From Szabonella alba (GTDB taxonomy: Bacteria; Pseudomonadota; Alphaproteobacteria; Rhodobacterales; Rhodobacteraceae), in assembly GCF_016765775.1 (NCBI RefSeq), contig NZ_JAESVN010000003.1:372001-436000 (forward strand): DNA of 64,000 nucleotides, written 5' to 3'. A program made the position numbers and the translations under genes. This document shows positions 27,431 to 40,787 of this stretch, piece by piece (position 1 is the stretch's first letter; each line of letters opens with the position of its first letter). Under the pieces are notes generated by a model. The model had not been told where the DNA came from. It saw nothing but the letters and a program-made list of their open reading frames with translations, and ran no database searches.

Positions 27431-27541
27431 TCCGCCGCTTTCGCCCCCGCGCGGCGCTTTCCCTTCGCCCGCCGCCGCGATAGAACCCGTCCCGACAAAG
27501 GCCCCCCGCGCCGGGGCCGCAGCGCCGCAAGGATGAATGAC

Positions 27542-30500
27542 ATGCCGATGGAAAAAACCTTCAACGCCGCCGAGGCCGAACCCCGCATCACCGCGATGTG
27601 GGAGGAAAAGAACGCCTTCGCCGCCGGGGCCAACAAGTCGCGCGATGACTCCTTCTGCGTCATGATCCCGCCGCCCAATGTGACCGGCGCGCTACATATG
27701 GGGCATGCCTTCAACAACACGCTGCAGGATATCCTGACGCGCTGGCACCGGATGCGGGGGTTCGATACACTCTGGCAGCCCGGCACCGACCATGCGGGGA
27801 TTGCCACCCAGATGGTGACCGAGCGCGAAATGGCCGCGAAGGGCGAACCGAGCCGGCGCGAAATGGGCCGCGAGGCGTTTCTGGAGCGGGTCTGGCAGCA
27901 GAAGATCAAGTCGCGTGGCACGATCATCGGGCAGTTGAAGCGGCTTGGCGCGTCCTGCGACTGGTCGCGCGAGGCTTTCACCATGTCCGGCGCGCCCAAT
28001 GCGCCCGAGGGTGAAGAGGGCAATTTCCACGATGCCGTCATCAAGGTTTTTGTCGATCTTTACAACAAGGGCCTGATCTATCGCGGCAAGCGGCTGGTCA
28101 ACTGGGACCCGCATTTCGAAACCGCGATCTCGGATCTTGAGGTCGAGAATATCGAAATGCCCGGCCATATGTGGCATTTCAAATATCCGCTGGCCGGTGG
28201 CGAAACCTATGACTATGTCGAGAAGGACGCCGAGGGCAATGTGACCCTTCGCGAGACGCGCGACTATATCTCAATTGCCACGACGCGGCCCGAAACCATG
28301 CTGGGCGATGGCGCGGTCGCGGTTCACCCATCGGATGAGCGTTATGCGCCAATCGTCGGGAAACTTTGTGAAATCCCCGTTGGGCCGAAGGAACACCGCC
28401 GCCTGATCCCGATCATCACTGACGAATATCCCGACCCGAGTTTCGGTTCGGGTGCCGTGAAGATCACCGGCGCGCATGATTTCAACGATTACGCCGTGGC
28501 CAAGCGTGGCAATATCCCCTGTTACCGGCTGATGGATACACAGGGCAATCTTCGGACAGACGGTGCACCGTATGCCGAATCCGCCATGATCGCACAAGAA
28601 GTAGCGCGCGGTGAGCGGACGTTAACAGAGGCTGAGATTGATGCGCTGAATCTCGTGCCGGATGACTTAAGGGGGCTGCACAGGTTCAAGCGCCCGGAAG
28701 ACAACAAACCACAAGCCCGAGAGCGCGTGGTAGAGCAGATCACCGCCGAAGGGCTGGCGGTGATGATCCCGGCCCCGCCCACGACACCCCGCCCCGGGCT
28801 TGACCCGGGGCCTCTGGCTGAACCGGGCGCTGCGGCATCGGACGAGGTCCCGGGTCAGGCCCGGGACGGGGTTGCGATGGTGCCTTATGTCGAGGCCAAG
28901 CCGATCATGCAGCCCTTTGGCGACCGGTCGAAAGTGGTGATCGAGCCGATGCTGACGGATCAGTGGTTTGTCGATACCGCGAAAATCGTGGAACCGGCGC
29001 TGGAGGCCGTGCGGAACGGCACCACCAAGATCATCCCCGAAAGCGGCGAGAAGGTCTATTTCCATTGGCTTGAGAATATCGAGCCGTGGTGCATCAGCCG
29101 CCAGTTGTGGTGGGGGCATCAGATTCCGGTTTGGTACGCAACCGCACCTGAAGACTTTGATGCTTATCGCGAAAAACTTGAATGGGTCAGAAATCAAGGA
29201 AGTGCTTATGACGGGAAAGAGCCCGAACGATTTGCAGGTCTAAAGGTCGTTCGGCACGAGGTTTGTGCTTCTACTGAAAGTGAAGCTCTTAAGAAGCTCG
29301 CACGAAAACTGCCCGCAGGAACAAAACTGAAGCTCGCTTATAACAATCTTGTTTCAAGAGAGAACGATGAGCTTGGCGGTTTTGGAATTGAAAATACTGG
29401 CGCTTGGGTAGTTTTCGTTTCCCGCGACCCCGACGTGCTCGACACTTGGTTTTCCTCCGGCCTCTGGCCCCTCGGCACGCTCGGCTGGCCCGAACAGACC
29501 CCGGAACTGCAACGCTATTTCCCAACATCGGTCCTTGTGACCGGGCAGGATATCCTGTTCTTCTGGGTCGCCCGGATGATGATGATGCAGCTTGCGGTGG
29601 TTGATCAGGTGCCGTTTCACACCGTCTATCTCCACGGCCTCGTGCGCGATGCCAAGGGCAAGAAGATGTCGAAATCGCTTGGCAATGTCATCGACCCCTT
29701 GGAAATCATCGACGAATACGGCGCCGATGCGCTGCGCTTTACCAATGCGGCCATGGCCTCCCTCGGGGGCGTGCTGAAGCTCGATACCGCGCGCATCGCG
29801 GGCTATCGCAACTTCACCACCAAGCTCTGGAATGCCTGCCGTTTTGCCGAAATGAATGGCGTCTGGGAGGGGCACAGCACCCAATCCGCCCCGCCCGATG
29901 CCACAGCCACCGCGAACCGCTGGATCATCGGTGAAACCGTCCGCACCCTGCATGAGGTGGACGCCGCCCTTGCCGAATACCGCTTCGATCAGGCCGCCGA
30001 CACGCTTTACAAATTCGTCTGGGGCAAGGTCTGCGACTGGTATGTGGAATTCGCAAAACCCCTGTTCGACGGCGACAGCGCCGCAGAAACCCGCGCCACG
30101 ATGGGCTGGGTGCTGGATCACTGCATGATCCTGCTGCATCCGATCATGCCCTTCATCACCGAAGAGCTGTGGGAAACCACCGGCAAACGCGTCGCCCCCC
30201 TGACCCTGACCGACTGGCCCAACCTGCCCGAGACGCTGATCGACGCGCCCTCGATGCGGGAAATGACCTGGGTGACGGGGCTGATCGACGCCATCCGGTC
30301 GGCCCGCGCGCAGATGCATGTGCCCGCAGGGCTGAAGGTCACGCTGCTGCGCATCGGGCTGGATGACACGGCCCGCGCCGCCTGCGACCGCAATGCCGGT
30401 CTGATCGCGCGGCTGGCCCGGATCGAAACGGTGACAGATGCCGAAACCGTGCCCAAGGGTGCGCTGACCATCGCGGCCGAAGGCGGCACGTTCGCGATTC

Positions 30501-30727
30501 CGCTGGAAGGGCTGATCGACATTGCCGAGGAGAAGGCGCGGCTGGAAAAGACGCTGGCGAAACTGGAAAAGGATCTGGCGGGACTGCGCGCGCGCCTGTC
30601 CAATCCGAAATTTGTCGCAAGCGCCAAGGAAGAGGTGGTCGAGGAAACCCGCGGGAAACTCGCACAAGGCGAGGAGGAGGCCGCGACTCTGTCCGCCGCC
30701 CTTGCGCGCCTTGCGGAGCTGCTCTGA
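27542..30727 (+). CDS. valS: Valine--tRNA ligase with an in-frame palindromic insertion and an extra AT-rich segment
   Basis: 1061 residues from ATG 27542 (AAGGA eight bases before); an ATG three codons upstream lies right on the AAGG and is less likely. HIGH motif in [11 protein letters not shown] near residue 52-56, KMSKS in [15 protein letters not shown], plus [13 protein letters not shown], the editing domain with [29 protein letters not shown] and [13 protein letters not shown]. The C-terminal coiled coil is [20 protein letters not shown]. It is longer than usual (E. coli about 950). About 28 residues come from a palindromic repeat at 28787-28871, and about 85 come from an AT-rich stretch at about 29140-29425 between the CISRQ and VLDTW motifs. 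All catalytic motifs are intact, so it should be functional. Confidence 0.94.
28787..28871 (+). repeat. Palindromic repeat element inserted in frame in valS
   Basis: The left arm at 28787-28812 and the reverse complement of the right arm at 28846-28871 agree in 23 of 26 positions; the shared core is CCCGGGC-(T/C)-TGACCCGGG. A 33-base spacer separates them. It is read through as Pro-Gly-Leu-Asp-Pro-Gly-Pro and Val-Pro-Gly-Gln-Ala-Arg-Asp-Gly without a stop or frameshift. It resembles dispersed REP/palindromic elements of alphaproteobacteria, which are usually intergenic. Confidence 0.75.
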
Positions 30728-40626: not shown

Positions 40627-40727
40627 GCTCCGCCTCGCTTTCTGCCCTTCGATTAGCCCGGATCGCGCGCGGCGTCACCCGGTCATCGCGTCACATTGCC
40701 GTGGCCGTATGCCGCGCGCGCCAAGTG

Positions 40728-40759
40728 AAAGGGGCGCAGATCCCCCGGATCTGCGCCCC
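40728..40759 (-). terminator. Terminator hairpin downstream of rne
   Basis: A perfect 13-base inverted repeat (40731-40743 with 40747-40759; core GGGGCGCAGATCC) lies 29 bases beyond the rne stop. In the rne direction it is followed by TTTCACTT, a modest T-run. The stem is strong enough to act as terminator or 3' protection. Confidence 0.75.
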
Positions 40760-40787
40760 CTGATCTTGACCATAAGCTTTGGTCCGG

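Follow-up and report, generated by a model that had tools for sequence, protein, structure and literature searches.

The valyl-tRNA synthetase gene (valS) of the 64,000-nt stretch of DNA analysed here (the window) carries, in frame, a palindromic element composed of two REP-like hairpin units, and the loop of the enzyme that holds it appears to be a recurrent site for the conversion of repeat DNA to protein. REP elements were recognised in 19 of 224 distinct valS loops, 12 of them CGTC-like and seven of the GTAG type. In-frame REPs within genes are already known, both as Rickettsia palindromic elements (RPEs) and in tRNA synthetases (PMC3733652, consulted in part). Recurrence at one loop of an essential enzyme, by two REP superfamilies, seems to be the new part, and a literature search, which did not extend to the target-gene list of Di Nocera 2013 (Additional file 3), returned no paper that describes REPs at valS. 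REPs are usually defined as extragenic (PMC12306157, consulted in part), and this is how small palindromic repeats in general tend to be viewed; here, one loop has apparently received them many times, in frame. A single repeat-in-gene anecdote thereby becomes a countable, replicated series within one bacterial family, which makes it possible to measure how often repeats are captured, which frame is preferred, how the DNA hairpin decays and what becomes of the added peptide.

The palindromic element and its copies in the same genome

The element spans 87 nt, or 29 codons (28786-28872), and its parts are listed in Table 1. The sequence-only reading had described arms at 28787-28812 and 28846-28871, complementary at 23 of 26 positions around a 33-base spacer and read through in frame within valS. 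These figures were exact on recheck, and the 29 codons lie inside one uninterrupted ORF. In an inverted-repeat listing of the window (arms of at least 18 nt, gap of at most 200 nt), the arms extend to 29 nt each, with 26/29 positions complementary and 29 nt between them, and this is the strongest of the 11 repeats listed. The RNA of the element has a predicted folding energy of -74.9 kcal/mol, compared to -48.4 (s.d. 3.7) for 200 shuffled sequences, none of which was as stable (z = -7.2). Each arm forms its own small hairpin, with a stem of 8 bp and a loop of 5 nt (6 nt in some relatives' arms), making the whole a head-to-head dimer of GC-rich REP-like units.

Table 1. Coordinates of the valS element, its host gene and loop, and the related arm in glyS
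Feature	Position	Strand	Basis or remark
Left arm, one REP-like hairpin unit	28786..28814		Model R1 match 28787-28814, minus strand, 49.6 bits; the same arm is among the model's 15 training sequences
Spacer of head-to-head dimer, 29 nt	28815..28843		Resembles the spacer in valS of G208 (L220)
Right arm, second REP-like hairpin unit	28844..28872		Model R1 match 28844-28871, plus strand; peptide EVPGQARDG
valS, valyl-tRNA synthetase, 1064 aa, intact	27533..30727	+	ORF list; Pfam PF00133, PF08264, PF10458
ValRS residues 417-444, predicted disordered loop holding the element	28781..28864	+	AlphaFold2 model
glyS, single REP arm	L004 1501-1527 (G000:C48:283172-283198)		Open frame read through

Stem pairing was assessed in an alignment of 15 arms, 14 of them distinct, from the window's genome and three relatives. 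Standard pairs fill 99.1% of cells, a value that is biased upward because the alignment was built around the hairpin. The changes seen are from C-G to T-A and from G-C to C-G or A-T. Both sides of the stem are altered in 13 cells, a number reached in none of 500 shuffles. The number of positions with change on both sides (two) and the number of further pair types were not above chance (345/500 and 496/500 shuffles, respectively, were as high), and both measures are unremarkable because variation is limited to two of the eight stem positions. An Rfam search of 28500-29100 returned four microRNA models only, all under their gathering scores.

A scan of the window's genome with a two-mismatch pattern was not selective enough, giving 49 matches on each strand versus 44 on each in a reversed control, and a covariance model of the arm was used in its place. 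Nine strong matches were obtained, at 40.8-49.6 bits, with the next at 22.8; as all nine arms were in the model, the informative part is the score gap and the absence of further strong copies. The nine arms make up five loci, four dimers and one single arm, and four of these loci are on one contig. The single arm is in frame in glyS and identical to the left arm of valS at 27/27 bases. Besides the valS element, one dimer lies 10 nt past the stop codon of cysS, ahead of a citramalate synthase gene, and two others flank a small gene between dihydropyrimidinase and amidohydrolase genes. This small gene encodes 95 aa from its first Met, is GIY-YIG-like by eye, and had no NCBIfam match. Judged from likely start codons, the last two dimers are read as intergenic, so that two of the five loci are intragenic, both in tRNA synthetase genes. 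The host genus is represented by this one genome. No Y1 transposase (PF01797) was detected in it; the family is present in 7 of the 41 genomes searched.

The arms resemble the CGTC REPs of alphaproteobacteria (Di Nocera, De Gregorio and Rocco 2013; PMC3733652, here and below as consulted in part) in their 8-bp stem and 5-nt loop (4-5 nt in CGTC REPs), their dispersal mostly as head-to-head dimers, and their occasional location within genes, tRNA synthetase genes included. However, stems of CGTC REPs (8-9 bp) begin with A-T pairs, while those in the window begin with G-C and then C-G or T-A; the published tag (CGTC, TGTC or CCTC) is unpaired, while in the window just one arm has CGTC, and its GTC is paired in the stem; and the tail is CTC instead of CCA. 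As it lacks the unpaired tag and the A-T stem start, we did not file the element as a CGTC REP. By analogy, it behaves as an intragenic CGTC REP, with membership of the four published CGTC families unproven, and we term it CGTC-like.

According to the parts of PMC3733652 consulted, intragenic REP dimers or groups encode 20 to 30 residues, and REPs occur in tRNA synthetases of three species and also in repair genes. Thus, insertion into an essential gene without loss of frame, which the sequence-only reading considered unusual, has precedents. In the same parts of the paper, no dedicated transposase was found for CGTC REPs, and a same-site REP hit is given for recB of two Xanthomonas only, whereas one valS loop holds REPs of two superfamilies in at least 16 genus codes. 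The earlier comparison to Rickettsia was apt, as RPE-4 and RPE-6 of R. conorii are counted among the CGTC REPs (CGTC-4 and CGTC-1; PMC3733652) and the window's arms are CGTC-like. The likeness, drawn without sequence comparison, lies in a palindrome read in frame within genes, here with an open frame through valS and glyS; RPEs belong to another host and are found in many genes (PMC10969869, consulted in part), in contrast to the few recurring sites seen here. The GTAG REPs, which are RAYT-associated, do not include the window's element, although seven other valS loops carry GTAG-type units. The Caulobacter CIR contains CcrM (GANTC) sites within the repeat. CIR, a name taken from the consulted part of PMC10969869, is also an alphaproteobacterial inverted repeat; the window's element lacks GANTC in 28786-28872.

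The valS loop across relatives

The valS product matches the Pfam families for class I tRNA synthetases, anticodon binding and the ValRS C-terminus, and its best solved chain, by sequence and by fold (Z 34.2), is Thermus ValRS 1gax. The element-bearing loop is situated between the GLAV and QPFGDRS motifs and, with respect to Thermus ValRS, in an unaligned stretch between a first match (residues 5-352) and a block starting at 468. In an AlphaFold2 model based on 26 sequences (mean pLDDT 78.6), residues 417-444 are coil, flanked by strands 411-413 and 449-451, with pLDDT values below 50 (mean 32 over 421-440). This model supports, although it does not prove, the idea of a permissive surface loop.

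A ValRS match was present in all 61 genomes of a first survey, some perhaps merely a related synthetase. Loops, defined as the GLAV-QPFGDRS interval, were taken from the window, from 109 relatives (29 + 80 loci), which include some other Alphaproteobacteria besides Rhodobacteraceae, and from 120 further family loci. Among the latter, the anchor is absent in L296, L337 and L338, L240 was unparsed, and two duplicates were removed, leaving 224 loops. This set was drawn from the matches listed, without G117, G143 and G161, and some genera are represented by more than one species among the named valS loci. Loop length is highly variable, for example 8-53 residues in one set of relatives. The alignment of relatives and the search for genomic copies, both proposed in the sequence-only reading, bear out an insertion: the insert is missing in nearly all relatives, the loop is not a conserved insert, and other copies exist, genic and intergenic.

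The CGTC-like loops are those of the window, L220, L097, L336, L331, L301, L300, L258, L250, L130, L121 and L106, and the GTAG-type loops are L298, L285, L267, L041, L038, L265 and L310. The latter hold nine units with a 7-bp stem and a short loop, seven with the GTAG tag and two with GCAA in its place (L285 and one unit of L041). Eighteen of the 19 carriers came from a pattern written after the loops were seen; L106 was added by eye. Sixteen carrier loops belong to genomes of different genus codes (the window, G208, G077, G115, G119, G073, G094, G114, G102 with L121, G139, G087, G129, G066, G148, G020 and G011), with L097, L130 and L106 not assignable to codes.

Two further observations concern individual loops. 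That of L336 has three REP-like arms, of which the third, GAGATCCCCGATCAAGTCGGGGATGAC, shows by eye an A-T stem start and a TGTC tag, like the canonical CGTC families. That of L309 contains a palindrome, CGTCTGACGCCCGTCAGACG, which matched neither REP superfamily.

Arms matching the pattern number 30 in the 21,912 nt of loop, which make up 4.6% of the DNA scanned, versus five in the remaining 454,887 nt. Judged by offset and sequence, these five, at two places, appear to be native coding sequence and chance-like. Perfect 8-bp hairpins occur in 17/224 loops (L309 included), while 0.94% of 8,960 windows of equal length, drawn from other parts of these genes, contain hairpins of at least 8 bp (binomial p ~8e-11). 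For 7-bp hairpins, the chance level is ∼5% of same-length windows. A second variable stretch of ValRS, 26-122 residues long, served as a control in 98 sequences (12 of 110 being unparsed); it has 8-bp hairpins in two, neither REP-like by eye, and zero pattern matches. This control is weak alone, because the first loop has just five carriers in those 98 sequences (the window, L097, L130, L121 and L041).

Resident copies, reading frame and other genic sites

Seven CGTC-like carriers were searchable, and they contain at least 69, 41, 9, 151, 67, 73 and 5 CGTC-like arms (valS arms included). These counts are lower bounds, because the model searches scored ∼150 first-look candidates per genome. Even the poorest of the seven, G077, has arms on two other contigs, and hence 7/7 tested carriers have at least two arms outside valS. 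At least two arms were found in 5 of 31 genomes without a CGTC-like valS element (Fisher p = 6e-5 versus the carriers), namely 17 in G003, 11 in G009, 90 in G010, 73 in G020 and 2 in G022, again as lower bounds. In all 31, the valS loop was seen; 24 come from a first search (E ≤ 0.1 plus stricter filters) and seven from a second (E ≤ 0.01). Omitted from the comparison were G004, G008, G014, G017, G021 and G029, in which the valS loop was not seen (two arms in G021, zero in the others). The GTAG model (R2) gave 8-114 matches, likewise minimum counts, in each of the seven GTAG carriers. It also gave 1-65 matches in 6/9 genomes without a GTAG valS element, with 8 or more in four, which makes the association between copies and carriers weak for this type. 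PF01797 was not detected in the GTAG carriers G011 and G020. Arms were most numerous in G073, where the count (at least 151) is near the number of candidates scored, and some are arranged serially in steps of ∼120 bp (C2:254826-255447).

The right-hand kind of arm is read in one frame, E-V/A-P-x-Q-x-R, in 11/11 CGTC-like valS dimers with a recognisable arm; in L130, this arm stands first. The consensus arm has no stop codon in any of its three frames. In glyS, both carriers use a frame different from that of valS (GGPGSSPGR), and in nrdJ, the valS frame is used in G010 and G020 (EAPDQVRG) and the glyS frame in G139 (L470; GGPGSASG). Selection on the peptide, a phase fixed by the target, or exchange between lineages could each give rise to the uniformity seen in valS.

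To what extent these elements enter genes elsewhere can be gauged from 45 REP clusters, taken in score order from 40 stretches of G010 and G020. Four lie inside genes confirmed by NCBIfam (yjeF/nnrD, glyS, and nrdJ twice); L360, a coding-like cluster with two opposed candidate frames, was not counted, and the filter could miss other coding clusters. The sequence-only reading took the valS insert as a sign that the element can spread through coding DNA: insertion into genes holds, while free spread is not demonstrated by 4/45 clusters in family-confirmed genes. Three of the four are at sites occupied in another genome too. The glyS insert of G010, a double arm (L354, L389), is in the same loop as the single arm of the window's genome, which belongs to another genus, and in nrdJ the arms of G010 and G020 coincide in position.

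REP arms were present in 2/47 glyS loci and 3/49 nrdJ loci, shares that are not unbiased because the queries came from carriers. For glyS, we took 50 of 145 matching genomes (the 30 best, followed by 20 more in rank order, omitting G079 and G161), three of which lacked the anchor; for nrdJ, 50 of 134 (30 best, 14 next and six hand-picked), one of which lacked it. We propose that the glyS and nrdJ loops are further permissive sites in core genes besides the valS loop. In nrdJ, which encodes B12-dependent ribonucleotide reductase, the arms come from three genera (L410, L411, L470), and the peptide GEAPEQVRG of L465 gives the impression of an arm-derived segment kept after loss of the hairpin.

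Origin of the insertions

A tree of ∼283 flanking residues, with the loop excluded, is short and poorly resolved. On this tree, the 20 labelled carriers (the 19 REP loops and L309) correspond to 20 changes, to 19 when scored as any element versus none, and to 12 when scored as CGTC-like versus the rest; the nearest row of every carrier is one without an element. A single clade for the ten head-to-head carriers was rejected (53 rows; 493 log units worse, p-AU 2e-127). A clade of the window plus L220 was not rejected (p-AU 0.28), and hence common descent suffices for this pair. L300, L301 and L258 together were weakly rejected (p 0.035). Element type alone points to several events: CGTC-like dimers are head-to-head or, in L130, tail-to-tail, L106 has another stem, and the GTAG type comprises two or more sub-types. 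The L300 dimer sits inside a long loop that otherwise resembles the L149 loop.

Among the genomes surveyed, the window's element with a near-identical spacer is found in one other, G208 (L220), and the left boundary is also common to the two. Identity is 87-98% in 45-nt windows from 28781 to 28885, and 60-70% in some stretches nearby. The excess similarity of the insert is weak evidence for exchange, because the adjoining conserved valS blocks reach 87-96% identity as well. None of three other G208 loci contained the spacer of the window's dimer (best local scores 11-12). Among other carriers, spacers differ while arms stay near-perfect, and L300, L301 and L258 have a common left boundary, AAACCCGCCCCGG. 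No target-site duplication was recognised by eye.

Taking the findings as a whole, we consider it probable that a dispersed REP-like dimer entered a tolerant, disordered loop of valS that has been occupied repeatedly. A non-autonomous palindrome would have been inserted head-to-head into the gene, at a probably surface-exposed position of ValRS able to accept extra in-frame codons, and read as 29 additional Pro/Gly-rich residues. REPs of two superfamilies would have landed in this loop again and again and survived in different Rhodobacteraceae, with tolerance rather than choice of target accounting for the recurrence, and the copies may have been made by a transposase acting in trans or by a replication or repair process. 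This account builds on the insert itself, its genome-resident relatives, its patchy presence, the different elements in the same loop and the predicted disorder. Against it, the single frame in 11/11 dimers is not predicted by random in-frame tolerance; with all three frames open, tolerance fits only if reading the arm in another frame does harm or if the target imposes the phase. Furthermore, valS is free of REPs in the REP-rich genomes G010, G003 and G009, and resident copies alone do not predict insertion, as the GTAG copies in 6/9 genomes without the valS element illustrate. The near-identity of the window and G208 elements, spacer included, makes exchange between lineages possible, and both the resolution of the tree and the second-region control are weak. 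Copying of a REP-bearing valS segment between lineages by homologous recombination, from few original insertions, would explain the element, spacer and left boundary common to the window and G208, their higher identity than in places nearby, the constant phase of the right-hand arm, and the boundary common to L300, L301 and L258. We nevertheless regard this explanation as rather unlikely, given that the adjoining blocks are similar too, that the window and L220 may form a clade, and that other carriers have differing spacers, a tail-to-tail order (L130), a different stem (L106) or, in seven loops, GTAG-type units. One ancient insertion in the ancestor of the family, lost or decayed in most lineages, would account for the same loop and phase, and the GEARDE-like peptides read in some non-carrier loops give the impression that they might be decayed arms. 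This scenario is very improbable, being rejected by the test against one clade, and it is also at odds with the two superfamilies, both dimer orders, near-perfect arms beside differing spacers, and the L300 dimer within a loop otherwise like that of L149.

The machinery that makes the copies could instead favour a sequence of this loop (e.g. AAACCC|GCC) or an exposed single strand in it, and thereby fix the phase; one phase in valS and another in glyS, as well as similar left boundaries in several carriers, are consistent with this. We think such a preference unlikely, since most boundaries differ, GTAG-type elements without that sequence occupy the same loop, nrdJ has two phases, and inspection by eye revealed no target-site duplication. 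A role for the valS mRNA hairpin or the added peptide in regulating or improving ValRS would be in keeping with the very stable predicted fold, the one reading phase and the retention of the element in two genera (those of the window and G208), but is improbable in view of the 205/224 loops with no recognised REP, the differing peptides and hairpins in the loop, and the predicted disorder. There is practically no chance that the palindrome arose fortuitously from a Pro/Gly-rich, GC-rich coding loop: the gene is GC-rich and 7-bp hairpins do occur by chance, but the homologous copies elsewhere in the genome and the concentration of arms in the loop refute this idea, and the stem changes are paired. 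More speculative than repeated insertion into a tolerant loop, and on balance doubtful, is a reading in which the ValRS loop is a docking site that captures unrelated palindromes, with the phase set by target or selection, giving the enzyme a new surface, and in which the loops of glyS and nrdJ are docking sites too, though weaker ones. If it were true, the Rhodobacteraceae would represent a natural replicated experiment in the conversion of non-coding selfish DNA to protein. The valS loop is also a place to look for the mover of CGTC-like REPs, for which no dedicated transposase was found in PMC3733652 (as consulted in part), and a comparison of close strains with differing valS loops would reveal recent insertions together with the sites they entered.

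Other features of the window stand apart from the element. At 29153-29422, 90 valS codons have a third-position GC content of 0.27-0.40, compared to 0.53-0.93 elsewhere in the gene. Neither Pfam nor blastp against the 109 relatives (E ≤ 1e-3) gave a match for this segment, and by composition it is a foreign-looking, putative second insert in the same gene. An eight-residue insert, KRPEDNKP (28688-28711), adjoins the conserved DRFEAR motif, and the letters RPED are found in only one of the 109 relatives, L033 (G036). Outside valS, an inverted repeat at 40722-40768 has arms of 22 nt that are 82% complementary and 3 nt apart.
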